A stretch of DNA of 64,000 bases, taken from positions 2,108,001-2,172,000 of the forward strand of contig NZ_PPDK01000001.1 in assembly GCF_003074135.1 (NCBI RefSeq), in the 5' to 3' direction. Positions 31,644-47,749 of the stretch are shown in pieces (positions within the stretch are counted from its first letter, which is position 1; every line of letters begins with the position of its first letter). This DNA is from Euzebya tangerina. Its GTDB lineage: Bacteria > Actinomycetota > Nitriliruptoria > Euzebyales > Euzebyaceae. Both the position numbers and the translations under genes were made by a program. The notes under the pieces were generated by a model that had not been told where the DNA came from, did no database searches, and worked only from the letters and a program-made list of their open reading frames with translations.

Positions 31644-32303
31644 TCAGCGCTTGGAAACCTGTCTGCGGCGGCCGAGCGCCACCAGCACGCCCGCCCCACC
31701 AAGCAGCACCAGCCAGACCAGCGCGAACCACGGCTGGTCCAGCAGCCGGGCACCAGCGCCTCGCACGACCTCGACCACGTGGTCGCTGACGGAACCGTCG
31801 GTCGTCACCACCCGGAAGGCCAGATCGCCATCGGTTGGCCGTCCGTCCACCACCAGCTGTCCCGCCGCGTACGGATCGTTCTCGATGCCGACGGTCCCCG
31901 CCAGCGTCCGGTTGCTCCACACCGCGAGCGGCGTCGCCCCGTCCCAGGACAGCTGCACCTCGGCCAGGTCCCCCACCACGACGGGCGGGTCGAAGGAGGC
32001 CGCAACCCACGCGCCGTCGGTGAGGTCTGCGCCCGACACCGCCGTCTCCCTCGGTCCGCTGGCCCCCTCCACCGTCACCGTCAGTATGCCCTCGGGATCG
32101 GGCTCCTGGGCGAACGTGGCAACGCTCACGTCGATCCGACTGACGGATTCGCCGACCGGGTTGAGAATTTGTCCGACCGAACTGTCCGCTTCAACCACCA
32201 GCGGGACGTTCAGCGACGGTTGGAACGGCTCCCCACCCACGCGTCCACACCCAGCGCTGAGCAGGAGAATCGTTGCAATTCCGAGCCTTGCCACACGGCG
32301 CAT
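31644..32303 (-). CDS. Putative membrane-anchored lipoprotein, unknown function
   Basis: A 219-residue protein I do not recognise. It begins with a basic n-region and a hydrophobic stretch ending ILLLSAGCG, close to a lipobox with the modified Cys at about 19. The body is beta-rich with no catalytic motif. A C-terminal membrane helix (WFALVWLVLLGGAGVLVAL) followed by GRRRQVSKR would place the tail in the cytoplasm. Both a lipid anchor and a C-terminal helix on one protein is unusual; one may be non-functional. It is convergent with the exporter genes and divergent from the CAP-domain gene. Confidence 0.7.
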   Translation of the reverse strand: MRRVARLGIATILLLSAGCGRVGGEPFQPSLNVPLVVEADSSVGQILNPVGESVSRIDVSVATFAQEPDPEGILTVTVEGASGPRETAVSGADLTDGAWVAASFDPPVVVGDLAEVQLSWDGATPLAVWSNRTLAGTVGIENDPYAAGQLVVDGRPTDGDLAFRVVTTDGSVSDHVVEVVRGAGARLLDQPWFALVWLVLLGGAGVLVALGRRRQVSKR

Positions 32304-32422
32304 CGGCTCACTGTAGTCCGATCAGGCAGGTGGACCACCGGACGATGAGTGCTCGGGAGCACCTGAGGCATTCTCCCTGGCATTACGGCTTGAGGGCCCG
32401 CCGACTACGGAGAGTGAGACCC

Positions 32423-33895
32423 ATGAGCGCACCAGCCTCGACCGTCCACCGGTCGCCCGTCCGCCTGAACCGTCGCACGCTGCTGGGGGGCTTCGCCGCC
32501 GCCGGCGCCCTGGCAGCCATCCCCGCGGTACCCGCATCAGCTCAGTCCGCCGCCGACAGCACACTGCTGCGGCTCATCAACGAGTACCGGCAGCGCAACG
32601 GTCTCCCGGCTCTCACCGAGGATCCGGCCCTGTCGGCGGTCTCGCGAGGCTGGTCGCAGGTGATGGCCGCGAACGGTGGCCTGTCGCACAACCCGAACGC
32701 CGTGCAGCAGTACGGCCGCGCCGTCGGCGCCTCGGGTGAGATCGTCGGGTATGCGGCGCAGAGCGGCGTCGCCGACGAGGAGCTGGCAGCACGCGTCGTC
32801 CAAGGCTGGATCAACTCCCCACCACACCGCGCCATCATGCTCGGCAGCAACTGGAACCGGATCGGCGTCGGGTCGGTCAGGGCCGCCGATGGCCGCCTGT
32901 ACGGCACCGGCAACTTCGTCCAGCTGCTGGAGGAGGAGTCCGCCCCGCCACCACCACCCCCACCACCACCGCCAGCCGAGGAGCCAGAGCTGTCCCCGGC
33001 AGGCGCGGAGGCGCTGGCGCTCTCACAGGCGCTCATGGCGGCAGCCAGCTGCCCCCGGATCGTGATCAGCCGGGACGACCTGGCGGTCGACGCCCTCGCT
33101 GGCTCGGGACTCGCGGGCGCGGACAGCCCGATCCTGTTCGTCAAGCAAGGACGACGCCTGCCCACCGCGGTCGTCGAGGAGATCAGCCGAGTATCGACCG
33201 CCGACACCCGCGTCTACCTGCTCGGCGGCGGCCTCTCGAGCGAGGCCGAACAACAGATCGCCGCAACGGGCGCGCAGCCCGTCCGCCTGGCGGGCTCCTC
33301 CCGCTACGCCACGGCCCTCTTGGTCGCACGAGAGCTGCTGGCCGTGCGCGGCCGTCCGTCACGCATCCACCTGATCGGCGCCGACGCATGGGCCGACGCC
33401 GTGTCCATCGCCGGCCAGTCAGCCCTGCACGGCGAGCCGGTGCTGCTCCTCGACCGGAGCCGAGTGCCCGGCGAGACCGCCGAGATGCTCGACGCCGTGC
33501 CCGAGGCAGACCGGCTGGTGATCGGTGGGACCGCGGTGGTCAGCGACCCCACGATGCGGGCCGCAGGGGCCCGTCGCCTGACTGGTCGTGACCGCTCGGA
33601 GACCGGGGCCAACGTCATGCGTGGGCTGTGGGCCCAGGAGCCCCGCTTCGGGGGGCACCTGATGGTGACGCCGGGATGGGCAGCGGACGGCTGGGCCTCC
33701 GCGCTGGCCCACAGCTCCTACGCCGCCAGGCATCAGGCTCCGTTGCTGTTCGCCGGTGACACCGAAACTCCCGGGCCGGTCCGGACGGTCCTGGCCGAGC
33801 AGAACTACGGACCAGCATCTGCGCCGACGCTGCGGTTTGCCGAGGGCGTGAACGCGACCGTCCGCGACGAGATCCGGGCTCTGACCGGCAACTGA
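32423..33895 (+). CDS. Secreted CAP/SCP-domain protein with CWB2 repeats
   Basis: A 490-residue exported protein. The N-terminus has a twin-arginine-like signal (RLNRRTLLGGFAAAG at 14-28, cleavage near 41). A CAP/SCP domain (about 44-172) contains LLRLINEYRQRNGLPAL, GLSHNP and the WINSPPHRAIMLGSNWNRIGVG signature. A ten-proline linker leads to three CWB2-type repeats (about 200-490), with YLLGGGLSSEAEQQI, AGSSRYATALLVA and VIGGTAVVS. The start at 32423 has GGAGAG eight bases upstream. CAP proteins in bacteria are of mostly unknown function; here it would be fixed to the wall. Confidence 0.88.
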   Translation: MSAPASTVHRSPVRLNRRTLLGGFAAAGALAAIPAVPASAQSAADSTLLRLINEYRQRNGLPALTEDPALSAVSRGWSQVMAANGGLSHNPNAVQQYGRAVGASGEIVGYAAQSGVADEELAARVVQGWINSPPHRAIMLGSNWNRIGVGSVRAADGRLYGTGNFVQLLEEESAPPPPPPPPPPAEEPELSPAGAEALALSQALMAAASCPRIVISRDDLAVDALAGSGLAGADSPILFVKQGRRLPTAVVEEISRVSTADTRVYLLGGGLSSEAEQQIAATGAQPVRLAGSSRYATALLVARELLAVRGRPSRIHLIGADAWADAVSIAGQSALHGEPVLLLDRSRVPGETAEMLDAVPEADRLVIGGTAVVSDPTMRAAGARRLTGRDRSETGANVMRGLWAQEPRFGGHLMVTPGWAADGWASALAHSSYAARHQAPLLFAGDTETPGPVRTVLAEQNYGPASAPTLRFAEGVNATVRDEIRALTGN

Positions 33896-34017
33896 CCGCC
33901 CACACCCCGGCGTGACAATCCCGCGCATGAGGTATCAGTGACGACGGCCGGTTCGTCCTAGGGTTACGCGGCGGTCCGTTCGAGACCGCCATCGCCCAAG
34001 GGAGCCTCAGGCCCGCA

Positions 34018-36351
34018 ATGCGCACGACCTCACCCACTCGCCACCCCCGTTCACGACTGCTGGTCGCCATCGCCGTCCTTGCGCTGCTCGCCGGCACCAT
34101 GACGGCAGCGATCGCTGATCCCGCCGACACGATCTCCATCATCAAGGACGGGGAGGAGGGGCTGTCCACGGCTGAGATCGCCTCACGCCTGACGGACGCG
34201 ACGTTCGCCTCGGCGGAGCGGGTCCTGATCGGTCGTGACGACGAGTTCGCGGACGCCATGACCTCCGGCCTGCTGCAGAGCGAGAGTCCGCTGCTGCTGG
34301 TCCCGTCGGCGGGTCCGATCCCACCGGAGATCATGACCCAGATCGAGCTGCTGGATCCGGCGGAGGTGCTCCTGCTGGGCGGCGTCGATGCCATCTCCGC
34401 CGGGGTGGAGGCGGAGCTGACCGGTGAGGGCTACGCCGTCGATCGCACCTTCGGTCCCTCGCGCATCGAGACGGCGACGGCCATCGCCGACGTGGGAGCG
34501 CAGGGCTCCGAGACCGTCCTGATCGCCCGGGCCTTCTCCGACCCGACGGTGGGGGATCCGACCCAGGCCTTCGCCGACGCGATGGCCGCCGGCGGTTGGT
34601 CCGCGTCGTCGGGCTGGCCCATCCTCCTGACCGAGACCGAGGTCCTGACCGGGACGACACGCAACTACCTGTCGAGCGGCGCTGTCCGCAATGCGTTCAT
34701 CCTGGGCGGCACTGCCGCGGTCAGCGCCGAGGTCGAGGCCGAGCTCCGGCTGCTGGTGGACAATGTGGAGCGGGTGGCGGGCAGCGACCGGTTCGGCACG
34801 GCGGTCGCCGTGGCCGAGAAGGTCGGCGCCCCGACGGCTTCCGATGCCGCTCGGCTGACGCTGGTCGACGGGCAGGGCGACAACGCCTGGGCGGGCGGGT
34901 TCGCCGCGGCGGCCCACTCCGCTCGCTTCGGCGCACCGATCGTGCTCACCTCCGGCGAGGTCATCCCGCCGGCCACGGCGGCCTGGCTGAGCAGTGCTCA
35001 GACCCCCGAGGCCCGACGGGGATCGGTGGGCGACACCCCCAATGACACCGATCCGATCCGACTCACCTGCGTGACCGTGGCCTCGGTCTGCGACGAGGCC
35101 CGCAGCCTGCTCGAGCTGCCGCCGCGGGTCCTGCTGCGCTTCGACCCGCCGAGCGGATCGACCATCACCCAGGGCGATGGGGTCGAGATCCTGGCCAACA
35201 ACACCGTGGACGAGCTCCAGATCAGCGGATCCTGCACCGACGGGCCGATCGCGGGGCCCAGTCCGACAGACGTGACGATCACCACGGTCGGGGAGTGCGA
35301 GCTGATCGTCACGCCGATCCTGCCGGGTGGTGTGGCTCAGGACGCAACGACGGCCTCCTACACGGTCATCCCGCCCGAGGATCCCGTGCCCCAGGTCGTG
35401 TTCCATGCGGGGGAGGAGGCGACGGACCAGACGACCGGAGAGCTGCGACTGGTTGGTGTCGATGGCTCGAACCCGCGCGTCATCGACGCGTGCGACGGCT
35501 GCCGCGACCTTCGGGTGTCGGCGGACGGCCAGACGCTGGTGTACGTGCACGATGACCAGATCATCACCCGCACGGGCCAGGACTTCGCCACGCCGACGAC
35601 CCTGGTCCCGTTGGCAGACGCCGTCAGCTGGTCCGAGCCGCAGTTCACCCCCGATGGCCAGGCCGTGATCGCCACCCGCAACAACAACGGCGACATCGGC
35701 GTGGAACGCATCACTCTCGCGGACGGAACCATCACCCCCCTGGCCCCGGGTCACCGCGTCGCCGGCAGCGATGCCGTCGGCGCCGCCGACGGCGCGGCCA
35801 GTGGTGCGGGGGTGTTGGTGTACGTGATCGAGAGCGTCCAACCTGGTGTCCAGAGCAATCTGGGTCTGGTCGACATCGCCGGTGGCCCGGTGATGCCGCT
35901 CGTGACCGTCCCAGGGGTGCTCCAGTCGGCCGCCCTCAGTCCCGACGGCACGGCCTACGCCTACGACCGCGGCGGAGATCCGCAGGTCAGCGTCGGGTTC
36001 TTCGAGCAGCGCCCCACACTTGACACCGATCTCGGCGCGGACCTGCGGATCGGCCAGCTGGTCTGGGCTGACGACAGCACCGTCCAAGGTCTTGACTACA
36101 ACCCTCCACCGCTCAAGGCGGCTGGACTGGCGACCACCGCCCAGGTCGATGTGACCGTCGGGGCGCAGGACCTGACCGTGGACGAGGGACCGCGCCGGCA
36201 GACCCTCATCGATGTCGGCCGTCCCGGTCCCTCTGGCGGCTCCCTGATCGCCCAGATCGGCACCGATCTGGCCTTCGCCGACACCGGCGTCACGATCACC
36301 GACGTGACCGGAACCCAGGTGACCAACCCCCACGTCCTGCCCGTCCCATGA
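34018..36351 (+). CDS. Secreted CWB2 protein with TolB-like beta-propeller segment
   Basis: A 777-residue exported protein. After a signal peptide (about 1-37), a CWB2 triad (about 45-360) shows GRDDEFADAMTSGLLQ, VLLLGGVDAIS and AGSDRFGTAVAVAEK, closed by a Cys pair (LTCVTVASVCDEA). An Ig-like domain with another Cys pair (SGSCTDGP, GECELIV) follows. Residues about 460-720 contain blade-like repeats of the TolB/WD40 type (RVSADGQTLVYVHDD, PQFTPDGQAVIATRN, AALSPDGTAYAYDR). The propeller probably mediates protein or glycan contact on the cell surface. It ends four bases before the GT2 gene start. Confidence 0.83.
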   Translation: MRTTSPTRHPRSRLLVAIAVLALLAGTMTAAIADPADTISIIKDGEEGLSTAEIASRLTDATFASAERVLIGRDDEFADAMTSGLLQSESPLLLVPSAGPIPPEIMTQIELLDPAEVLLLGGVDAISAGVEAELTGEGYAVDRTFGPSRIETATAIADVGAQGSETVLIARAFSDPTVGDPTQAFADAMAAGGWSASSGWPILLTETEVLTGTTRNYLSSGAVRNAFILGGTAAVSAEVEAELRLLVDNVERVAGSDRFGTAVAVAEKVGAPTASDAARLTLVDGQGDNAWAGGFAAAAHSARFGAPIVLTSGEVIPPATAAWLSSAQTPEARRGSVGDTPNDTDPIRLTCVTVASVCDEARSLLELPPRVLLRFDPPSGSTITQGDGVEILANNTVDELQISGSCTDGPIAGPSPTDVTITTVGECELIVTPILPGGVAQDATTASYTVIPPEDPVPQVVFHAGEEATDQTTGELRLVGVDGSNPRVIDACDGCRDLRVSADGQTLVYVHDDQIITRTGQDFATPTTLVPLADAVSWSEPQFTPDGQAVIATRNNNGDIGVERITLADGTITPLAPGHRVAGSDAVGAADGAASGAGVLVYVIESVQPGVQSNLGLVDIAGGPVMPLVTVPGVLQSAALSPDGTAYAYDRGGDPQVSVGFFEQRPTLDTDLGADLRIGQLVWADDSTVQGLDYNPPPLKAAGLATTAQVDVTVGAQDLTVDEGPRRQTLIDVGRPGPSGGSLIAQIGTDLAFADTGVTITDVTGTQVTNPHVLPVP

Positions 36352-36355
36352 CGGC

Positions 36356-37375
36356 GTGGCCATGAGGGTCACGGTCTGCGTGGTGTCCTACAACACCGCG
36401 GACCACCTGGCGGCCGCGCTGACCAGCCTGCTGGACCAGACCCACCCCGACCTGCACCTCGTCGTGGTGGACAACAACTCACATGACGGTTCGGCGGATA
36501 TCGCGCGGCGGTTCTCCGACGTCGAGGTGATCGCCAACCGCCGCAACCTGGGCTACACCGGGGCCGCCAATCAGGCGCTGGCCCGTGCCGCCGACGGTGG
36601 GTTCTTCCTCGTCACGCCAGACGTGCGCCTGGATCCCGGCCACATCGCAGCCCTCGCGACGGGTCTGGAGGCCCGGCCGCACGCAGCCAGCGTGCAGGGC
36701 CGGCTGCACCGCATGCGGCCCGACGGGTCCGTCGTCACCGTCGATGGCCAGCCGATGATCGACTCCGCCGGGCACAGCGCCCACACCAACCGGGTCTTCC
36801 GCAACCGCGGTGACGGCCTCCCGGACGACGGCAGCTACGACGACCCGGTCGAGATCTTCGGCGTCACCGGCGCCGCTGCGCTCCACCGCGTCGCCGCCCT
36901 CCACGACATCGCCCTCGACGGGGAGGTGTTCGACGACGATCTCTTCGCGTTCTTCGAGGACGTCGACATCGACTGGCGGCTGAAGGCGCGAGGGTGGCAG
37001 GCGTGGTACCTCCCCGATGCCGTCGGCCGTCACGAGCGAGGCGGGGAGGGCGCCCGCCGGAGCCGACTGGTCGAGCGACTCAGCTACCGCAACTGGTTCC
37101 TGACCGTGGCCAAGAACGACGACCCCGGATCGCTGCTGCGCCACTGGCACCTGCTGGGCGCGACGACGGCCCTCCGCACCGCCGACCTCGCGCTGACCGT
37201 GCCGCTGGCGTTCCTCGGCGCCGTCCGCGATCTGGCAGATCCTCGCTCGACTCTGCGCAAGCGCCGGCTGGCCGAGGCCCACCGGACGGTCCCGAACGCC
37301 GAGATCGTGGCGCGTTGGTTCGAGCCCTTCGACTACCGGGCCTGGGTGGCCAAGCGGATCAGACGGGGCTGGTAG
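36356..37375 (+). CDS. GT2 glycosyltransferase
   Basis: A 339-residue GT2 enzyme with TVCVVSYNTADHLAAAL at the start, VVDNNSHDGSA, TPDVRLDPGHI as the DxD-like element and FFEDVDIDWRLKARGW as the acceptor motif. This is the pattern of rhamnosyl- and related transferases. The GTG at 36356 and an ATG at 36362 are alternative starts two codons apart. It follows the propeller-CWB2 gene by four bases, so an exported surface protein and a glycan-building enzyme are apparently cotranscribed. A very strong hairpin follows 19 bases after the stop. Confidence 0.88.
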   Translation: MAMRVTVCVVSYNTADHLAAALTSLLDQTHPDLHLVVVDNNSHDGSADIARRFSDVEVIANRRNLGYTGAANQALARAADGGFFLVTPDVRLDPGHIAALATGLEARPHAASVQGRLHRMRPDGSVVTVDGQPMIDSAGHSAHTNRVFRNRGDGLPDDGSYDDPVEIFGVTGAAALHRVAALHDIALDGEVFDDDLFAFFEDVDIDWRLKARGWQAWYLPDAVGRHERGGEGARRSRLVERLSYRNWFLTVAKNDDPGSLLRHWHLLGATTALRTADLALTVPLAFLGAVRDLADPRSTLRKRRLAEAHRTVPNAEIVARWFEPFDYRAWVAKRIRRGW

Positions 37376-37592: not shown

Positions 37593-40500
37593 ATGAGCGA
37601 CATCGAATCACGAGTGGACCAGGCCTTCGAGAGCGCGGTGACCGCTCAACTCGAGGAGCAGCGCCGGATCCGGCGCCTGGTCAGCCGTGTCGAGGAGAGC
37701 CTGGTCACGGTGTCCGATGGCCTTGCGACACTGTCCGACCAGTTCGGCGGGGCAGCCAGTGAGCTGACCAAGAACACCGTCAGCCCACGGGAGCTCGACT
37801 ACGTCCGGGACCAGCTCGTCACCGCCCTCGACCGCGTCGAAGGCGGCATCGCCGGCGTGGGGGCGCAACTGGCCGACAGCGAGACCCTCACCGAGTTGCG
37901 GCGCACCGTCGCAACCCTGCGTGAGGAGATGATCAGCGGCCTCGAGCGGGTCGAGCACGGGGCCTCCCCGATCGCCGACGCCGTGGCCCAATCGCGCAGT
38001 GACGTCCTGGTCGCCATCGACCGGGTGGCCGACATCGCCCGATCGGAGCAGGACCGTCGCTGGACGGGCGCGATCGAGCGTCTGGACGACGCGATCGAGA
38101 GCCTGGAGGACCGGGCGGACGCGCAGACCGCGGGGACCCGCGAAGCCGTCGAGACCCTGCAGCGCAGCGCGGCCGGTGCGCTGGCCAGCCTGGCCGAGTC
38201 CACGGAACGAGACCTGGCCGCGCTCCTCGAGTCGGCGCGGGCGGACATCGGCGACGCCAGCCGTGCGGCAGGCGAGACGGCAGCTGCGACCGGCTCGGCG
38301 GCCATCGAGGAGATCGCGGTCGCCGCAGCACAGCAGGCCATCGCGGCCCTCCAGGAGCAGTCCCAGGCATCGGTGGAGCGGCTCTCGCGGGTGTCCGAGC
38401 GCCAACTGACGGAGGTCGTGACGACCGCCGCCACGCAGGCCGCGACCGAGGTGGCCACCCGCCTGAGCAACGTCGCCAGCCAGGTCACCGTGGACCTCAC
38501 GGAGTCCTCACGGCAACTGGACGAGGCCAGCACGGCCGTCGGTGACGCCGCAGCCCAAGCCACCCGCGAGGCCATCGCCGGTGAGCTGGCCGGACTCCTG
38601 GACACCGCGGCCGATCGCAACGAGCGGCTCGCCGGACTCATCGATCGGGCCGCCGATCTTCGCACGGACCTGGAGCCGCAGCTTCGTGACGCACTGGCTG
38701 GCACCACCGAGCAGCTGGCCACGATGTTGGACGCCCAGCGTCAGCAGATCGTGGAGACCGTCACGGAGCTGGCCGGGGCACGAGGTGCCGGCATCGGCGA
38801 TGTGCGCTCCATCGTCGACCAGGCGGTCGCCCGGCTGGAGCGCAGCAGTGTCGAGCGCTTCGCCGACCTCACCGAACACTCCACCCAGGCAGCCGACGCG
38901 CTCACCCAGGCGGCAGCGCTGGTCACCCAGGTCACCACCGACAACGCCGCGCAGACCCGACAGACGCTGGACACCGCCCTCGATGCCCTGCTGGGCGCCA
39001 ACGAGGACCGGACCGAACGCGTGGCCGCGGCTGCGGCCCTGCTGACCGACGCGGCGTCGTCGCTCGAGCCGCGCCTGGCGCGCGCGCTCGCGGACGTGCA
39101 GACCTCCTTGCGGGAGGTGGCGGCGGAGGACCGGGCCGAGGTCGACGCGGCACTTGCGGCGCTCACCGAGGCGTCTTCGTCTGCCCGCGAGGGCGTGCTG
39201 GAGGCGGTGGGGCGGGCGACGGCCAGGCTGGCGGAGGCGCACGGATCGGGCCTGGCGCGCCTGACCGAGGCGGCCGAGACCCTGGAGCAGATGCCGGCGG
39301 AGCTGCAGCCGGTGCTGCTGGCCGCGGTCACGCAGGTCCAGGACGGCGTTGCGCAGGCCGTGGAGGACCTGGGCGCCGCCTCGGCTGCAGCGGCCCAGAC
39401 CCTGGAGCCCCAGGTCCGGCAGTCCCTGGTCGACGTCCAGCAGGCGCTGGGCGAGGTCGTCAGCGGCGAGAAGGCCCGGTCCGACCAGGCCATGGCGATG
39501 CTGACCGACACCGCCCGTGCGGCTGCCGAGCGGGTCCAGTCCGCCGCCGACGAGGCCACTCGCCGCTTCACCGAGGCGCAGGTCGAGAGTCTGACGGGCT
39601 TGACGGAGGCATCCCGGACCCTCCGCGACGTGGTCGAGTCCGTCCCGGGCAGGATCGAGGGGGCCACGCAGCGACTGCAGCAGTCGCTCACCGACGTGGC
39701 GCTGGCCGACCGCGAACGGGTGGAGGCGTCCCTGGCCGAGCTGACGCAGGCCGCGGCCGACATGACCGAGATCGCCCAGTCCTTCAGCGACACCGGGCGC
39801 AGCTTCCTCCCCTCGGCGAAGGGGCTGGTGAATCAACTGGCGGCGGCGGTCGACCAGGCGGCCGAACGCTCCAGCGGGGTGGCCAGCGAGGTCACCGCCG
39901 AAGCTCGCGGGATGCTGACCGAGGCCATCGGCCAGGTCCGCACCGAGCTGGCCGAGGACCTCGAGCAGACCAGCACACGCATCGAACAGACGACGGCCGC
40001 GCTCTCCGAGGCCAGCCTGGCCAACACCGATCGGCTGCAGCAGGCGGCCGAGGACCTCGCCGCGGTTGCCCTGCAGATCAGGCCGGACGTCACGGCGCTC
40101 GTGACCGACGTCCGCCAAGCCCTGCAGGACGACGTCGCAGCATCCCGGTCCGCCACGACGGAGTCGATGACGCTGCTCGGGGATGCGACGCGGCAGACCC
40201 GGGCGGCCCTCGAGGCCGGGCTGGCCGATGTCACCGGGGACCTGGCGTCGACCATGACCGAGAGCCTGGCCTCCCTCCAGGAGCGCTTGCAGGCCGCCGG
40301 CGAGGACCAGGTCGCCCAGACCTCTGCACTGACCGCAGCGACGTCGGAGCTGTCCGTACGGGTGGGTGAGGCGCTGGAGATCGCCGTCGACGGCCTCCGG
40401 CAGGCAGCCGAGCAGGCTGCAGGCCAGCTGGGTGAGGCCTCCGACCAGATGGCGACGCGGATCGAGGCGAGTACGGAGGCCGTGGCCGGCGGGTTGGCCG

Positions 40501-42347
40501 AGCAGATCACCCGGGCACGAGACAGCGTCGCGGAGGCCAGCACCCGGATCGACGGTGCCGTCGAGCAGCTGGGCTCGGCCGGACAGTCGATCGCCGCCGA
40601 CATCCAGGCGGCCAGTTCGGACGTCGGACGGCAGCTCTCCCAGGACGTCGCGGGAACGCGGCGGGAGCTGGAGACGATCCACCGCCGGCACACCGAGCAG
40701 CTGGAGACCCTCATCACCGAGGCCACCGAGCGGCTGACGGCCGAGCTGACGTCGACCCGGGAGGGCCTCGCGGAGACGTTGACCGGCGGTCGGGCCGCTG
40801 GACAGGAGACGGTGGCGGGGGTCGAGGCCACGGTGACCCGGCTCATGGACGGCTTGGGCGACCAGGTCAGTGCCCTGGAGGGCGTGGTGAGCCGCGCTGT
40901 CGACCAGAGCGAGGAGCTCAGCTCGCGCGGACACACCGAGGTGGGGGAGCTGCTCACCGCCGTCCGCGAGGAGATCGACACCCAGATCAGCCTCACCCGG
41001 ACGGCCCTGCGGGGCCAGGTGGATCGGCTCGCGCAGCGGGAGCGTGAGGACGCCGGCCGGGTCGGCGACATCGCCGGACGCATGGAGGAGCTGCTGCTCG
41101 ACCTGCCCTCCGACGTGACCTCGACCGTCTCGAGTGTCCGAGATGCCCTGGTCGCCAGCGTCGAGGAGGACCGTCGCCAACGGGATGAGGTGGTCCGGGA
41201 CCTCGGCGCGGTCGTCGAGTCGGTCCGGTCGGAGATCATCGACGCGGTCGGCCAGCTGAACCAGGCCGTCACTGTCGCGCCCTCGCTCTTCGAGGACCCC
41301 GCGTCCACCGCTCTGGGGACGATGCTGTCCTCCATGGAGCGGCGCCTGGCCGACCAGATCCAGCAGATGGTCGCCGCGGCGATCGAACAGCAACCCGTGC
41401 CGCCGCCGCCCGGTCCATCACGGCGAGACGTCGTGAGCATGATCGACGCTGCGGTCGAGCGGATGAGTGCCGCCACGGAGGAGGGGCTCAGGGTTTCGCT
41501 GTCGGACACCGATCAACGGCTCGCAGACCTGGCTGTCGCCGTCGATTCGCTCCGCGGACGACTCGAGGAGGGGCCGGCCACCGGACCAGATGGCATGGAG
41601 GTGATGGAACGGGCCGACCGCCTCATCACGGACCTCCGCCGCGGGCTGCGCACCGATGCGGATGCCGTCCTCGATGCTCTCGCAGTCCGAGCGGACGAGG
41701 TCCTGGCCGGGGTCGACGCGCAGGCCAGCACCGTGCTGGCGCAGCTCGCGAGCGCCGAATCCTCGCTGCGGACCCAGCTGTCCCAGGCCTTCCAGCAGGC
41801 TCAGGACGACAGCCTCGGCAGGCTGGACGAGGCCACCTCCCGACTGGCAGCCATCAGCCCCGGAGTGGACCGCCAACGGCGGCCGAGTGCGGAGGGCGCC
41901 GAGGTCGGCCTGGCCGACGTCAGAGCCTTGCTGTCGGACGTGACGGACCGCTTCGAGCAGTTGGAGATGGCCATGACCGGGCACGTCCAGGACCTCAAGG
42001 GCGATGCGGAGGACACCGAGCGAGTGTTGGCCACCATGGCCGGACAGCTGCAGGATCTCCTGTCGCGCGATGCAGACGGCGGGCGGCACCGCTGGGCCCA
42101 GCCCCGTCCCGGTGACCGCCCTCCGGCTGACCGCCCCCGGGCTGACCGGCCGCCGGTTGACGTGAGGGACACCGCTGCTCGGGTGACGGCGCCACCACCG
42201 CCGTCCGTGCCCGCGCCGGTCGCCGATGTGCCGGTGCTGGAGCGCCGGCGGGGGCTCGGCAACGTCTGCCCGGACTGCGGCTTCGTGGCCAAGACGCCAC
42301 CGGGACTGGCAGCGCACCGGCGGACCTGCACCGGCGCCTCCGAGTAA
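37593..42347 (+). CDS. Giant coiled-coil protein with C-terminal C2HC zinc knuckle
   Basis: A 1584-residue protein, almost wholly alpha-helical by composition (Ala, Glu, Gln, Arg, Leu, Thr, Ser; few Gly or Pro) from about residue 1 to 1500. A recurring segment starting [L/I]xP and continuing with LxDVQxxL is visible near 360, 491, 605, 684 and 829. No signal peptide or membrane helix is seen, so it is cytoplasmic. After a Pro/Arg/Asp-rich linker (about 1505-1550) it ends in CPDCGFVAKTPPGLAAHRRT followed by C, a C-x2-C-x11-H-x4-C zinc knuckle. Long coiled-coil proteins such as Scy and FilP organise polarity in streptomycetes; similarity here is only architectural. An AAAGG sequence lies about ten bases before the ATG. 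Confidence 0.85.
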   Translation: MSDIESRVDQAFESAVTAQLEEQRRIRRLVSRVEESLVTVSDGLATLSDQFGGAASELTKNTVSPRELDYVRDQLVTALDRVEGGIAGVGAQLADSETLTELRRTVATLREEMISGLERVEHGASPIADAVAQSRSDVLVAIDRVADIARSEQDRRWTGAIERLDDAIESLEDRADAQTAGTREAVETLQRSAAGALASLAESTERDLAALLESARADIGDASRAAGETAAATGSAAIEEIAVAAAQQAIAALQEQSQASVERLSRVSERQLTEVVTTAATQAATEVATRLSNVASQVTVDLTESSRQLDEASTAVGDAAAQATREAIAGELAGLLDTAADRNERLAGLIDRAADLRTDLEPQLRDALAGTTEQLATMLDAQRQQIVETVTELAGARGAGIGDVRSIVDQAVARLERSSVERFADLTEHSTQAADALTQAAALVTQVTTDNAAQTRQTLDTALDALLGANEDRTERVAAAAALLTDAASSLEPRLARALADVQTSLREVAAEDRAEVDAALAALTEASSSAREGVLEAVGRATARLAEAHGSGLARLTEAAETLEQMPAELQPVLLAAVTQVQDGVAQAVEDLGAASAAAAQTLEPQVRQSLVDVQQALGEVVSGEKARSDQAMAMLTDTARAAAERVQSAADEATRRFTEAQVESLTGLTEASRTLRDVVESVPGRIEGATQRLQQSLTDVALADRERVEASLAELTQAAADMTEIAQSFSDTGRSFLPSAKGLVNQLAAAVDQAAERSSGVASEVTAEARGMLTEAIGQVRTELAEDLEQTSTRIEQTTAALSEASLANTDRLQQAAEDLAAVALQIRPDVTALVTDVRQALQDDVAASRSATTESMTLLGDATRQTRAALEAGLADVTGDLASTMTESLASLQERLQAAGEDQVAQTSALTAATSELSVRVGEALEIAVDGLRQAAEQAAGQLGEASDQMATRIEASTEAVAGGLAEQITRARDSVAEASTRIDGAVEQLGSAGQSIAADIQAASSDVGRQLSQDVAGTRRELETIHRRHTEQLETLITEATERLTAELTSTREGLAETLTGGRAAGQETVAGVEATVTRLMDGLGDQVSALEGVVSRAVDQSEELSSRGHTEVGELLTAVREEIDTQISLTRTALRGQVDRLAQREREDAGRVGDIAGRMEELLLDLPSDVTSTVSSVRDALVASVEEDRRQRDEVVRDLGAVVESVRSEIIDAVGQLNQAVTVAPSLFEDPASTALGTMLSSMERRLADQIQQMVAAAIEQQPVPPPPGPSRRDVVSMIDAAVERMSAATEEGLRVSLSDTDQRLADLAVAVDSLRGRLEEGPATGPDGMEVMERADRLITDLRRGLRTDADAVLDALAVRADEVLAGVDAQASTVLAQLASAESSLRTQLSQAFQQAQDDSLGRLDEATSRLAAISPGVDRQRRPSAEGAEVGLADVRALLSDVTDRFEQLEMAMTGHVQDLKGDAEDTERVLATMAGQLQDLLSRDADGGRHRWAQPRPGDRPPADRPRADRPPVDVRDTAARVTAPPPPSVPAPVADVPVLERRRGLGNVCPDCGFVAKTPPGLAAHRRTCTGASE

Positions 42348-42495: not shown

Positions 42496-42729
42496 ATGAT
42501 CGGCATAGAGCAACTGCCATGGGCAGACCAGGCCAAGTGCCTGCAGGCCGAGCCTGACACCTTCTTCCCGGAGAAGGGGGGCTCCACCCGCGAGGCCAAG
42601 CGCATCTGCTCGATGTGCGAGGTGAAGGCCGAGTGTCTGGAGTTCGCCCTGGCCAACGAGGAACGATTCGGCATCTGGGGCGGGATGAGCGAGCGGGAGC
42701 GGCGCAAACTCAAGCGACTGGCCTCCTGA
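42496..42729 (+). CDS. whiB: WhiB-family transcription factor (WhiB/WhmD type)
   Basis: A 77-residue iron-sulfur regulator. Four cysteines that bind a [4Fe-4S] cluster are at 15, 38, 41 and 47 (C-x22-C-x2-C-x5-C). FFPEKGGSTREAKRIC, GIWGG (59-63) and the basic tail ERERRKLKRL match Streptomyces WhiB and mycobacterial WhmD/WhiB2, which control septation or sporulation together with WhiA or sigma factors. The position ahead of a GT2/membrane fusion, DUF5719 and DUF3499 is the locus of that orthologue in many actinobacteria, which supports the subtype. A GAAGGA ribosome-binding sequence precedes the ATG. Confidence 0.94.
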   Translation: MIGIEQLPWADQAKCLQAEPDTFFPEKGGSTREAKRICSMCEVKAECLEFALANEERFGIWGGMSERERRKLKRLAS

Positions 42730-42788: not shown

Positions 42789-45700
42789 ATGACGACCGCT
42801 CCCGCACCTTCCCCACCGTCGGCGTCGCGGTCATCCGCGACCCCGCGTGTCTTGGCGATCATCGTTGCCAGTTCAGGCGGCGACTGGCTCCGAGCAGCGC
42901 TGCGCACCCTTCGCGCGCAGGGGTATCCGCGCCTGGCAGTCGTCGGCGTGGACAACGCCTCGACCGACGACACGGGCGAGATCATGCGGGAGCGGCTGGG
43001 CGCCAGTCGTGTCCTCCGCCTCGACCGCAATCGCGGGTTCGCCCGCGCCGTGTTCGAGGCCCTGCGCGAGTACACGGACGCCAAGGCCGACTACGTCCTG
43101 CTGGTCCACGACGACATGGCCCTGATGCCGGACGCCGTGCAGTGGCTGGTCCGAGCCATGGAGGCCGACCCGCGTCTCGCGATCGCCGGCCCGAAGCTGC
43201 GGGAGTGGGACGAGGACGCGCTGCTGCAGAGCGTCGGCATGAGCGCCGACGTGTTCGGGCGGGCCGAGCGGCAGTTGGACGACGGCGAGTTGGATCAGGG
43301 GCAGCACGACAGTCGGCGGGACACGCTGTACGTCCCCACTGCCGGGATGATGATCCGCGCTGACCTGTTCAACAGGATCGGCGGGTTCGATCCACGGTTC
43401 GTGGTGTTCCGAGAGGACATGGACCTGTGCTGGCGGGCGTGGAACACCGGCTCACGGGTCGCGGTGGTGCCGGAGGCCGTCGGCTACCACGTTGCCGCGG
43501 CTGCCAACGGGCTGCGCGAGTCGATGGACATGAGCCGGGCTCGATACCTCATCGAGCGCAACACCCTGGCCACGACGATCAAGAACTACTCGCTGCGTCG
43601 GTTGGCGTGGCTGCTCCCAGCCGGCTTCGCGTTGGCCGTGATCAGGACGCTTGCCCTCGTCGTCGCCCGGCGGTTCGGTGAGGCCTTCTCGATCATCCGG
43701 GCGTACGTCTGGAACATCAGCCAACTCGGTGGGACGCTCACCCGTCGCCGTGTGGTCCAGACGGCCAGGACCCGGACCGACAAGCAGGTCGGCGCCCTGT
43801 TCGCCGCCGGCCTCCCTCGTCTGCAGCAGTACTCCGACTCCTTCAACGAGTTGATCGCCGGGACGAACACCTCAGCCCTGATCGACGCGGAGGAGGTGGA
43901 GCGCATCGGCATCGACCCGTTGGCGGACCAGCCGTTGCAGCGCTTCCTCCGCGACCGACCCCTGGTCCTCCTCGGCGTCCCGCTGCTGCTGGCGTTCCTG
44001 TTCTCGATCGCCCCACTGCTCGGCAGCGGGCCGGTCGTCGGCGGACAGATCACCCCCTGGCCCGACTCGGCCGCCACGTTCCTCCGCAACTACGTCAGCC
44101 CCTGGGGAGCCGAGCCGCTCGGCTCAGCGTCGTTCCCCTCACCCATCCAGGCGGTCTTCGGCATCGTCGGGACGGTCCTCGGCGGCAACGCCTGGCTGTC
44201 CGGGCGGCTCCTGGTCTTCGGCTTGCTGCCCCTGGCCTTCGTCACGACCCTCCGCGCCGGACGTCTGGTCACGTCACGGCCATGGCCGCGCGTCGTCGGC
44301 GCGACCGTCTACGTCCTCTCGCCGGTCGTGCTCGGAACCTTGTCCCGCGGACAGTACGGGCTGCTCGTGGTCGCGGCCCTGTTGCCTGCGGCCGCGTCCC
44401 TCACGATCACCACCGCCTCGCCCCAGACCGTCCGAGGCCGGGCGTGGCGCAGCACCGCGCTGCTCGGCCTGACCCTGATGCTGGCCCTGGCCGCGGCACC
44501 CATCGACGGGCTGCTCCTGGTCGTCGGCGTTCTCGTGGGCGCGGTCACCGCCGCCCTGCGTGGCTGGTGGCGACCACTGGCTCGGCTGCTGGTCGGGCTG
44601 GCCGGAGCCGGCGCGCTGTTGGCACCCTGGTTGCTGGACCTGGCCCGGAACGGCGGCCCCGCCGGCGGCACCCTGGCCAACACCGTGGGACTGCCCGCCA
44701 CCGAGCCGCTGTCCCCCTGGCGGGCGCTGCTCGGGCAACCCCAGACCGTGGACGGCCTGGATGGCGTGCTCGGGTTCGGGATGCTCCTGCTGCCGGCCGC
44801 GGTGTTCATCGGGGTGCTCTTCGTCGGCATGCGCTCCCGCCCGCTGATCACCGGGGCGTTGTGTCTGGCCGTTGCGGTCGCCGGGACGCTGGCCTGGTTG
44901 GCGCAGTGGGCCGGCGTGCCGTTGCTCGACACCACCACCCTGCTGCTGCCTGGGGTCCTGGCCCTGGCTGTTCTGGCGACCGTGGTGACGCGATGGTCTG
45001 CCGACCTCCTGACCGCCGCTGACTTCGGCGCCAGCCAGGTCGGCGCTGCCGTCGGCGTCTTGGTTGGCATCGGCGGCGTGCTGGCAGGTCTCGGTCTGCT
45101 GACGGCTGGTCCGTGGCAGTCCCTGAGCCTGGACCCGACGTTGGTGCCGGCCTTCATCGGGTCAGAGGGTGATGAGGTCGGCCAGTACCGGGTGCTGCTG
45201 CTGGACACCGACGATGAGGGCGGCGTCACGTGGGAGATCACCGACGACGACGGCCCGGACATGTCCGAGTACGGGACCATCCGGGATCAGGCGCTCACCG
45301 ACCTGATCAACGACACCGTCACCCAGATCAGTGATGGTGTCGGCAGCGGTGCGGCCGCCACACTGGGTGTCCTCAACATCCGCTACGTCGTCCTGCTCGA
45401 ACCCGATCCCACGTTGCAGACCGCGCTGTCGGGCCAGGTTGACCTCGACCCGCTGTCGTCGCAGGCGGCCGTGACATACCAGGTGCGCACGTGGTTGCCC
45501 CGGGCCGGAATCCTCGGCCAGCCGCAGGCCGATCGGCTGCTGGCCACCGGTGACCCCGGGCCCACCGGGCCGCTCGACATCACGCTGTCGCAGGTCCGGC
45601 CCGGCCGCTACACCACCGACACCCTGGACTCCGACCGCGGCTTGCTGGTCGTCAGCGAGTCGACCTCCTCTGCGTGGCGTGCTGTCGGCGGCGGAGACGA

Positions 45701-45980
45701 GCTCCAACAGGTCGAGGTGCCGGCCATCAACGCCTTCCGGGTGGAGGAGACCACCTTCAACTTCACCGTTGCGGTCGAGGGTGGCCTGCGGCGCCGGGCC
45801 GTGGTCGCGGGCCAGATCCTGGTCGCGCTGATCGTGCTCTCGCTCGCCGTCCGACCGCCCGGCGCCTCGGTCAGGGAGGAGCGCGTGACGTCGATGCCGG
45901 CTGACCTGGTCGGACTGGCGGATCAGACCATGGCGCTGCCGAAGATCGACCCCGACCGACCGCCAGCGGGGGCATCATGA
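42789..45980 (+). CDS. GT2 glycosyltransferase fused to multispan membrane region
   Basis: A 1063-residue protein. The GT2 domain (about 18-290) has VDNASTDDTGE, LLVHDDMALMPDA and FREDMDLCWRAW. Then about ten to twelve membrane helices run from roughly 275 to 790, followed by an extracytoplasmic domain and a last helix near 1015-1035. The layout combines a cytoplasmic GT-A domain with a GT-C-like membrane portion. This gene follows whiB in many actinobacteria and its exact role is not established. A TAGGCT hexamer at 42768-42773 may be a -10 box. It overlaps the next gene by four bases. Confidence 0.88.
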   Translation: MTTAPAPSPPSASRSSATPRVLAIIVASSGGDWLRAALRTLRAQGYPRLAVVGVDNASTDDTGEIMRERLGASRVLRLDRNRGFARAVFEALREYTDAKADYVLLVHDDMALMPDAVQWLVRAMEADPRLAIAGPKLREWDEDALLQSVGMSADVFGRAERQLDDGELDQGQHDSRRDTLYVPTAGMMIRADLFNRIGGFDPRFVVFREDMDLCWRAWNTGSRVAVVPEAVGYHVAAAANGLRESMDMSRARYLIERNTLATTIKNYSLRRLAWLLPAGFALAVIRTLALVVARRFGEAFSIIRAYVWNISQLGGTLTRRRVVQTARTRTDKQVGALFAAGLPRLQQYSDSFNELIAGTNTSALIDAEEVERIGIDPLADQPLQRFLRDRPLVLLGVPLLLAFLFSIAPLLGSGPVVGGQITPWPDSAATFLRNYVSPWGAEPLGSASFPSPIQAVFGIVGTVLGGNAWLSGRLLVFGLLPLAFVTTLRAGRLVTSRPWPRVVGATVYVLSPVVLGTLSRGQYGLLVVAALLPAAASLTITTASPQTVRGRAWRSTALLGLTLMLALAAAPIDGLLLVVGVLVGAVTAALRGWWRPLARLLVGLAGAGALLAPWLLDLARNGGPAGGTLANTVGLPATEPLSPWRALLGQPQTVDGLDGVLGFGMLLLPAAVFIGVLFVGMRSRPLITGALCLAVAVAGTLAWLAQWAGVPLLDTTTLLLPGVLALAVLATVVTRWSADLLTAADFGASQVGAAVGVLVGIGGVLAGLGLLTAGPWQSLSLDPTLVPAFIGSEGDEVGQYRVLLLDTDDEGGVTWEITDDDGPDMSEYGTIRDQALTDLINDTVTQISDGVGSGAAATLGVLNIRYVVLLEPDPTLQTALSGQVDLDPLSSQAAVTYQVRTWLPRAGILGQPQADRLLATGDPGPTGPLDITLSQVRPGRYTTDTLDSDRGLLVVSESTSSAWRAVGGGDELQQVEVPAINAFRVEETTFNFTVAVEGGLRRRAVVAGQILVALIVLSLAVRPPGASVREERVTSMPADLVGLADQTMALPKIDPDRPPAGAS

Positions 45981-47749
45981 CCGCCGTCCGGGGACGTAAG
46001 CGAGGGAGCGTCCTGCTGCTGCTGGCGATCGGGCTGGCGGCAGCGCTGGTCCTGGGCAGTGCCGTGCTGCCCGACCCGCCCGACCAGGTCGTTCAGGCGG
46101 AGACCGGTGAGGTGCAGCGCGCCCGGTCCGGAACGGCCTACTGCCCGATGACCGCCTCGGAGGGCGACACCGCGGCCCTCGAGATCGCCTCGACCTCCGC
46201 CGATGAGGACTCCCAGATCACGATCACGCGCTTCATCGACGGCGTGCCGCAGATCGACGAGCCGCGTGTGCTCGAGGCGGGACGGTCCTCGACCCTCGAG
46301 ATACCGGCAGACCAGCTCTCGACCCCGGTCACGGTCGACTGGTTGGGCGCGCCGGTCCTGGCCCAGTACCGCCTGACCGATGACACCGAGCAGGCGGTCG
46401 CAACCTGTCAGACGAGACCCTCCGACCGCTGGTACCTGTCCGGCTTCGACACCAACCGCGGCAACACCTCCACGATCAACCTGTTCAATCCGTTCGAGAG
46501 CGACGCCATCGTCACCCTCCGCTTCGGGACCACCGAGGGAGCCGTCGAGTTGATCATCGCCGACGAGTTGTCCGTCCCCTCCGGTGAGGTGGTGGTCACG
46601 GACCTAGCGGACTTCCGTCCCGAGACGGCGGACCTGGCGGTCACCGTCCAGGCGCGCACCGGGCGAGTCATCCCGCAGGGACAGATCGTCCGCGGGCCCG
46701 CAGGCGAAGGACTCGAGGCCATCACGGGCCGTGCGCTGATCCCGGCCGTGCCCGAGGCCAGCGAGACCCTCTACCTCCCCGAGGCCCAGGTGGACTCGTC
46801 AACCGACTCGTGGGTGACCGTCTACAACCCCGAGGACCGAGCGGCAGCCGTCCAGGTCAGCGTCACCACGCCACTTGCCACCACGGCGGCGTCCGTCGGT
46901 GAGGTCACCGTCCCCGCTGGTGGCACGACCCGGTTCGACCTCGCCGACCAGTCAGCCCTCCCTCGTATGGGTGTCGCGCTCACCAGTGTCAACGGCGTCC
47001 GCCTGGTGGCCACGCGGACGACGGCCCTGATGGAGGGGGAAGCCGGCTCCGACGCCGAGCGGGACGGCGTGTCGATCGCGGCTGCAGCCAACGCCGCTGA
47101 CGTGGCGTGGACGCTGCCGGGCGCCCGACCACCCGATGGCGTCATCACGATCTTCAACCCGGGCGCCGAGGTGGCCTCAGCACGCCTGAGCACGGCCGGG
47201 TCCGCACCCCCGGAGTGGGATGCGGTCTCGATCCCACCGAACGCGGTGGTGGAGCTCCCGCTGCAGGACGCAGCACCGGAGGGGCCCGTGCTGGTCGACG
47301 CCGACCGACCGGTGGTGGCGGCCGTGGTGTCGGTGTCGCCGGGCAGCGCGCCTCAGCTGTGGTCGGCGACCGGGACCCCGGTCCGCGAGTTGCTGGGCCC
47401 TGATGAGGCCGACCAGGCCAGACGTGATCCCGCCCTGTCCACCCGGCCGGCGACATCCGCGACGGCAACACCCAGCGCGGCTCCGGTGATCGATGACGGC
47501 GGCGGCGAGGGTCAGCTCGATCCGCTGGAGTCCAGCCCGACACCCTCGATCGTCCCCGAGCCGACGGTCACGCCGACCTTCTCGCCCGGACCGCTGCCCA
47601 CGGATGCGCTCCCGACCGATGAGGCGCCGGGGGAGGCCGGAGCCGGTGGCGACGCGCCAACCGGGACACCTGAGCCCGACGAGAGTCCGCCACCGCAACA
47701 GCCCGCGCCGGGGGAGGAGGCAACCGAAGAGGGCAACCTCTTCGGCTGA
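45977..47749 (+). CDS. DUF5719 family exported protein
   Basis: A 590-residue membrane-anchored or exported protein. One hydrophobic segment near the N-terminus (VLLLLAIGLAAALVLGSAVL) is followed by a long beta-rich extracytoplasmic region with repeated motifs such as NLFNPFESDAIVTLRFG, TVYNPEDRAAAVQVSV and TIFNPGAEVASARL, matching DUF5719 proteins that follow the same glycosyltransferase in actinobacteria. The last 110 residues are Pro/Thr/Glu-rich. The ATG overlaps the preceding stop by four bases. Its function is unknown; the repeated NP-containing strands suggest a repeated sandwich fold. Confidence 0.8.
   Translation: MTAVRGRKRGSVLLLLAIGLAAALVLGSAVLPDPPDQVVQAETGEVQRARSGTAYCPMTASEGDTAALEIASTSADEDSQITITRFIDGVPQIDEPRVLEAGRSSTLEIPADQLSTPVTVDWLGAPVLAQYRLTDDTEQAVATCQTRPSDRWYLSGFDTNRGNTSTINLFNPFESDAIVTLRFGTTEGAVELIIADELSVPSGEVVVTDLADFRPETADLAVTVQARTGRVIPQGQIVRGPAGEGLEAITGRALIPAVPEASETLYLPEAQVDSSTDSWVTVYNPEDRAAAVQVSVTTPLATTAASVGEVTVPAGGTTRFDLADQSALPRMGVALTSVNGVRLVATRTTALMEGEAGSDAERDGVSIAAAANAADVAWTLPGARPPDGVITIFNPGAEVASARLSTAGSAPPEWDAVSIPPNAVVELPLQDAAPEGPVLVDADRPVVAAVVSVSPGSAPQLWSATGTPVRELLGPDEADQARRDPALSTRPATSATATPSAAPVIDDGGGEGQLDPLESSPTPSIVPEPTVTPTFSPGPLPTDALPTDEAPGEAGAGGDAPTGTPEPDESPPPQQPAPGEEATEEGNLFG

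Follow-up and report, generated by a model that had tools for sequence, protein, structure and literature searches.

A long helical rod protein with a predicted C-terminal zinc finger, encoded beside whiB in Euzebya tangerina

Gene content of the locus

The window, that is, the whole 64-kb stretch of DNA analysed here (G+C 70%), has as its longest ORF the gene of a 1584-residue protein, P0001, at positions 37593-42347 of the forward strand. This agrees with an earlier note on this DNA, which had singled out the product as that of the largest gene of the window and had placed it beside surface glycan genes; glycosyltransferase (GT) genes indeed lie on both sides. The same note had put the rod gene two genes before whiB, whereas whiB follows it directly. 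The gene order is GT2 - rod - whiB - large GT - DUF5719 - DUF3499, with the following annotated features:

36356..37375, + strand: GT2 glycosyltransferase, directly upstream of the rod gene (domain search)
37593..42347, + strand: rod protein gene P0001, 1584 aa (ORF calling; selection measured on the relatives G002 and G003)
42496..42729, + strand: whiB-family gene, 77 aa, directly following the rod gene (PF02467, E 1.7e-25)
42789..45980, + strand: large membrane glycosyltransferase with a GT2 domain, 1063 aa, conserved partner at the locus (domain search, locus comparison)
45977..47749, + strand: DUF5719 protein, conserved downstream neighbour (PF18986, E 1.8e-25)

The region 32273-36351 encodes two secreted proteins that carry cell-wall-binding CWB2 repeats, with a CAP domain in the first; the rod orthologue of G024 also adjoins a CAP+CWB2 gene. 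A distant paralogue of the large GT is found about 23 kb upstream, at 18787-19635 (G000:C1:2126787-2127635), and several other genomes also have a second paralogue of this kind.

Domain architecture and selection

P0001 is rich in alanine (17.8%), leucine (10.4%), arginine (9.3%) and glutamate (9.2%), has only 0.3% lysine, and is strongly acidic, with a net charge of -116. Consistent with the earlier note, which had seen neither signal nor membrane segments, no signal peptide is evident in the sequence and the maximal 19-residue Kyte-Doolittle mean is 1.21, below membrane-like hydrophobicity. The protein is divided as follows:

37611..37742, + strand: conserved N-block, aa 7-50 (RVDxAFxxAVxxQLxEQRxIxRLVxRVxES), present in all family members, with 0 amino-acid changes between G002 and G003
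37770..41282, + strand: rod, aa 60-1230, amphipathic helix with a 3.637-residue hydrophobic period, length varying among orthologues
41940..42086, + strand: rod-end region, aa 1450-1498, aligned with the family C-block
42102..42227, + strand: Pro/Arg/Asp-rich flexible linker, aa 1504-1545 (from sequence; pLDDT <50 at aa 1540-1553)
42267..42329, + strand: predicted C-terminal zinc finger, aa 1559-1579, C-x2-C-x12-H-x3-C (ligand spacing, profile, AlphaFold2)

AlphaFold2 returned almost only helix for aa 1-620, at a low confidence (mean pLDDT 52.5) that led us to leave this model out of the fold comparison, and for aa 1440-1584 it gave confident helix to about aa 1490 (pLDDT about 90). Prediction of a disordered protein, which the earlier note had named as an outcome that would speak against it, was thus not obtained: P0001 is predicted to be helical apart from its proline-rich tail. 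The rod-end region is clear in G024 and in distant members and has diverged in P0001's own genus; the C-block profile gave no match to G000, the genome that encodes P0001, at E 0.001.

Comparison of the rod genes of G002 and G003, the two closest relatives, over 1886 aligned codons gave dN 0.065 and dS 0.526, with a ratio of 0.123 that is even along the rod, and the last 36 residues show 0 amino-acid changes. This ratio in relatives indicates that the P0001 gene is real and under purifying selection. Over the first 59 codons (37593-37770 in P0001), synonymous divergence between the same two genomes is 0.097 against 0.526 for the whole gene, which suggests that the start of the gene is under an additional constraint at the DNA or RNA level. 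Rfam searches, gene-start region included, and scans for promoter and terminator consensus sequences found nothing.

Family and phyletic distribution

Relatives were sought with the conserved ends of the protein: the N-block, the rod end and the finger. The first 164 residues found one orthologue each in three genus-mates, one genome of the same family and one of the same order, and a finger-only search led to these five genomes again, and to the ORFs that the N-terminal search had matched. Six-frame matches to the finger alone were many and weak (E 0.01-1) and were kept only if they lay in an N-block ORF; three weak finger matches (L033-L035) proved to be unrelated loci. The five orthologues measure 1661, 1886, 1930, 1369 and 1062 aa with constant ends, and it is therefore the ends that are conserved and not the length of the rod. 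A 51-aa N-block profile (A2, then A4 and A7) added G015, G040, G050, G054 and G060 within the class and, elsewhere in the phylum, G071, G088, G099, G102, G150, G160, G218 and G238. The rod-end profile A6 recovered G015, G040, G088, G102, G150, G160, G218 and G238 and added G179 and G296; it was built from most of the rows that it recovered, with G015, G179 and G296 independent of it. Both blocks are short and their E-values apply to single genomes; the assignments are backed by gene order. Weak N-block matches in G019, G030, G047, G056, G125 and G262 were rejected as non-orthologues from their gene context.

Orthologues thus occur in about 20 other genomes, from P0001's own class and four other families of the phylum, and not in one strain only, the finding that the earlier note would have counted against itself. 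Within the class the rod gene is present in 11 of 66 genomes, a count that excludes the weak, unconfirmed matches in G019, G056 and G065, and wherever the contig shows the whiB site it lies there. As most class genomes lack the gene, the class as a whole can dispense with its role. Members range from 964 to 1930 aa within the class and from 323 to 749 aa among the distant members, and N-block identity between the class and the distant families falls to about 25%. A tblastn search of plasmids found no relatives, a PDB sequence search with the whole protein gave no match, and no family was found in PHROGs, above the cut-off in NCBIfam, or covering P0001 in Pfam; the literature searched, with partial coverage, held no description of the rod family.

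Among the class genomes with a readable contig, whiB lies directly 3' of the rod gene in G001, G004, G015, G024, G040, G050, G054 and G060, and the same place is marked by an antisense ORF in G002 and by a gap of matching size in G003; the large GT comes after whiB in these loci. Outside the class the order is cofGH - rod - GT in G071, G099, G150, G160, G218 and G296, and cofGH - rod - whiB in G088. The upstream cofGH was identified by Pfam in G050, a genome of the class (radical SAM plus CofH_C), and elsewhere by its sequence ending. The GT of G071 starts 3 bp after the end of the rod gene. For comparison, the GT served as anchor to fetch 20 loci from class genomes in which no N-block match was convincing; these control loci were scanned with a rod detector that gives a signal in all eight positives tested (power 14.6-26.6). 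A rod or coiled coil was found in none of the 19 readable control whiB loci, the 20th being too short; the place before whiB is taken there by a GT2 gene, by a sigma-factor-like gene or by other genes. The sigma-factor-like gene (ending TYRDVAxVLGIPEGTAKSRLRDGLLRLRxxLE) stands before whiB in L145, L146, L148 and L150-L152, where the rod gene is absent. Judged by sequence, the family consists of a conserved N-block, a helical rod and a rod-end block at a cofGH-(whiB)-GT locus, and P0001 belongs to it.

Rod periodicity and internal repeats

Periodicity was computed from where L, I, V, M and F fall in the protein and compared with 50 shuffles. Residues 1-1300 of P0001 yield a single sharp period of 3.635-3.640 (power 96, against at most 9.8 in the shuffles), the rod alone peaks at 3.6365 (power 103), and the hydrophobic stripe stays coherent over about 1200 residues. 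The exception is the window of aa 1-200, where the best period is 3.47 (power 12.9); the remaining rod does not behave in this way, and a near-heptad stretch that lacks the DivIVA-like motif does not decide membership of the DivIVA-like superfamily. A period of 3.637 rather than 3.5, the latter being unfavoured except near the N-terminus, rules out a classical heptad coiled coil for the rod. The helix of the earlier note stands, albeit modelled with low confidence over aa 1-620; its term coiled coil does not hold in the heptad sense. Orthologue rods have periods of 3.624-3.642 and the wider family 3.60-3.70, bar one fragment at 3.54; in the shortest members, G150 and G238, the peak barely exceeds the shuffles. 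An undistorted helix has 3.63 residues per turn, and the difference from this value sets the supercoiling (Martinez-Goikoetxea and Lupas, PMC9858780). Set against it, a period of 3.637 predicts that the P0001 rod is an almost unsupercoiled helix, near the hendecad rods of FilP and Scy, and would make it, among natural helices, an unusually clear case of predicted supercoiling close to zero. On a helical wheel the hydrophobic stripe is narrow (~120 degrees), its flanks are enriched in Arg, and acidic residues occupy the opposite face.

Internal repeats were scored as ungapped 50-aa windows against a shuffle that preserves helix phase (maximum 75, mean 60). Two pairs of windows exceed the shuffle maximum, those at 486/599 (score 97) and 480/673 (score 83), with these copies:

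39048..39197, + strand: internal repeat copy, aa 486-535 (SLEPRLARALADVQTSLREV...), score 97 against aa 599-648
39387..39536, + strand: internal repeat copy, aa 599-648 (TLEPQVRQSLVDVQQALGEV...), pair of aa 486-535
39609..39758, + strand: internal repeat copy, aa 673-722 (SVPGRIEGATQRLQQSLTDV...), score 83 against aa 480-529

The internal duplication proposed in the earlier note is borne out by these pairs, but the weaker ones fall inside the null (321/452, 70; 541/799, 67; 598/823, 66) and are only suggestive of duplication. An [LIV]-x-P motif stands at 360, 491, 571, 604 and 829 and is also found in the three genus-mates. In the rod gene of G040 (L071, 6904-9948) a long internal stretch is duplicated almost without change (IGEAVVAGMEERLAALVRADDGDRLVSQVAGELDARV... 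twice), so that rods of the family appear to lengthen by recent tandem duplication.

The C-terminal finger and its exchange

P0001 ends in VCPDCGFVAKTPPGLAAHRRTC, in which the ligands C1559-x2-C1562-x12-H1575-x3-C1579 have the C2H2/TFIIIA spacing. The pattern C-x2-C-x12-H-x3-[HC] is present in all six finger proteins (G000-G004 and G024), with Cys as the last ligand in five and His in G024 (HRRVH), which is a regular C2H2 finger. This spacing rules out a CCHC zinc knuckle (C-x2-C-x4-H-x4-C), and the C-terminal C2HC knuckle of the earlier note has to be given up. A profile of the five orthologues' fingers matches the solved human MBP-1 finger (E 2e-4), and AlphaFold2 models the P0001 finger at pLDDT 91-93, with two bridge residues and then helix over aa 1569-1578. 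Almost all neighbours of this finger in Foldseek are C2H2 fingers, of which the nearest superpose at 0.4-0.9 A rmsd over about 22 residues, with E-values >3 for so short a motif; the Pfam finger models, zf-C2H2 included, score below their cut-offs on P0001. By ligand spacing and modelled fold, the motif is a TFIIIA-type finger of the C2H2 class, predicted to bind zinc, and P0001 would be a bacterial example of a giant helical rod that bears one finger of this type.

In four relatives a (HhH)2 domain takes the place of the finger, after the N-block and rod-end block (Pfam HHH_5, E 7.6e-17 in G050, 2e-11 in G040, 6.1e-12 in G054 and 1.7e-10 in G060); that of G054 sits on a second contig, which ends next to whiB, and its join to the rod is one that we infer. 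In the distant members G071 and G099 the C-terminus is a tail rich in Lys and Arg (31% and 25.5%), and G015, of the same order, has neither finger nor (HhH)2 module. By analogy, the property common to finger, (HhH)2 domain and basic tail would be nucleic-acid binding, and this is the strongest functional argument that we have; of the two roles that the earlier note had offered for the C-terminal module, binding of nucleic acid or of a partner, the (HhH)2 relatives argue for the first. Isolated C2H2 fingers can bind proteins, and a single finger is usually insufficient for specific DNA binding.

Functional interpretation and alternatives

The question that the locus addresses is by what physical means deep-branching actinobacterial classes coordinate the nucleoid, the septum and envelope growth at the poles; in actinobacteria, WhiB-type regulators govern division. 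A cytoplasmic scaffold is the best class of explanation for P0001, for which we count the absence of a membrane segment and signal peptide and the coherent rod period in all orthologues. More specifically, and tentatively, we favour a cytoplasmic helical scaffold or tether with a nucleic-acid-binding tip, tied to division and envelope growth. The N-block would probably let the protein associate with itself or dock onto a partner, the rod would act as a nearly straight helical spacer lengthened by internal duplication, and the finger, on its flexible proline-rich linker, would form a tip that binds nucleic acid, most likely DNA, equivalent to the (HhH)2 tip of the relatives. P0001 would in this way keep the nucleoid in place, or arrange it, with respect to the machinery of division or envelope growth, and its expression would be coupled to that of a putative operon of WhiB and the glycosyltransferase.

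The (HhH)2 domain at the finger's place supports a nucleic-acid-binding tip, and the precedent of RocS (discussed below) counts for a scaffold with a DNA tip. In Streptomyces, WhiB and WhiA control ftsZ, ftsW, ftsK and filP (PMC4850268), which together with the adjacency of whiB counts for a tie to division and the envelope. Against the DNA tip we count the frequent insufficiency of a single finger for specific DNA binding and an EEA1-like neighbour of the finger; against the proposal also count the charge of -116, by which only the tip could touch DNA, the lack of a module in G015, and the many class genomes without the gene. Somewhat unlikely, in our estimate, is the proposition that P0001 represents an undescribed actinobacterial rod family forming a physical link between the DNA of the nucleoid and the machinery of division or envelope growth, with the DNA-binding tip swapped, the base kept and a rod of up to 1930 residues.

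The main rival, which we regard as possible if doubtful, is a cytoskeletal scaffold of polar growth or the septum, like Scy, FilP or DivIVA, that would recruit envelope glycosyltransferases and whose finger would bind a protein and make no contact with DNA. The polarity scaffolds of actinobacteria are long rods rich in hendecads (PMC9858780), the rod locus is an envelope-glycan gene cluster in which the GT of G071 all but abuts the rod gene, and the protein-binding finger of EEA1 is among the Foldseek neighbours; the tip of four relatives, however, is a (HhH)2 DNA-binding domain, which protein binding alone hardly explains, and the DivIVA-like motif is missing. It is less probable that the adjacency to whiB is hitchhiking and that P0001 has nothing to do with division or envelope synthesis, serving instead as an accessory protein in stress or as structural filler: the patchy presence within the class and the persistence of the downstream whiB-GT pair without the rod gene would fit, but the locus has been kept from the class to four other families despite the low N-block identity. 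An apolipoprotein-like helix coating a membrane or lipid surface is very unlikely, since the likeness to the amphipathic-helix repeats of PF01442 (Apolipoprotein A1/A4/E), for all the Arg flanks, opposed acidic face and period near 3.64, stops at 88.3 bits, just below the gathering cut-off of 90 that decides membership, the P0001 helix is acidic and narrow-striped unlike that family, as are the other rods acidic, and a loose lipid-binding discriminant is passed by only 3% of its 18-residue windows (1-5% across long members).

Comparison with known systems

The scaffold with a nucleic-acid-binding tip that we prefer resembles several known systems in part. The DivIVA-like superfamily is defined by the RGYDxxEVD motif (PMC9858780). 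GYD is absent from P0001 and the five finger orthologues, and DivIVA of Pfam does not match P0001; the missing (R)GYDxxEVD motif rules out membership of P0001 in the DivIVA/Scy/FilP group. G000 encodes two separate DivIVA-domain proteins elsewhere, a 210-aa DivIVA (RGYDRDEVD) and a 643-aa protein (RGYHRDDVN); the latter (G000:C1:2970330-2970776) has a long Ala-rich rod and is probably the FilP-type protein of this genome. The Scy/FilP-like scaffold of the earlier note survives as an analogy: P0001 shares with these proteins a very long actinobacterial rod, in P0001 presumably cytoplasmic, high alanine and a hendecad-type, non-heptad periodicity (PMC9858780), here 3.637, and differs in its N-block, its finger or (HhH)2 tip, its locus and the lack of RGYDxxEVD, so that, as far as sequence can tell, the likeness is one of rod design and not of kinship. 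Scy recruits ParA to hyphal tips (PMC3718342). Such rods can therefore couple growth and chromosome segregation.

RacA of Bacillus subtilis anchors the chromosome by means of a DNA-binding module and a coiled-coil oligomerisation region, and it is in this proposed logic that P0001 would resemble both RacA and RocS. In RocS of Streptococcus pneumoniae, a DNA-binding domain with a coiled coil can serve chromosome segregation (PMC11500499); its DNA-binding domain is N-terminal and its amphipathic helix C-terminal, whereas the module of P0001 is C-terminal and the rod far longer. With eukaryotic tethers of the EEA1 type P0001 shares a long rod and one terminal C2H2 finger, and the Rab5-binding finger of EEA1 (3mjh) is a weak Foldseek neighbour (E 6.6), but the rods have no known homology and the position and partners of the finger differ. 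Long helical scaffolds are already known in bacteria; what is new here is the exchange of tips, the fixed locus and the lengthened rods, and a rod family fixed beside whiB and a large envelope GT, with exchangeable tips of DNA-binding type, offers a concrete and directly testable candidate for the link between nucleoid, septum and envelope growth.
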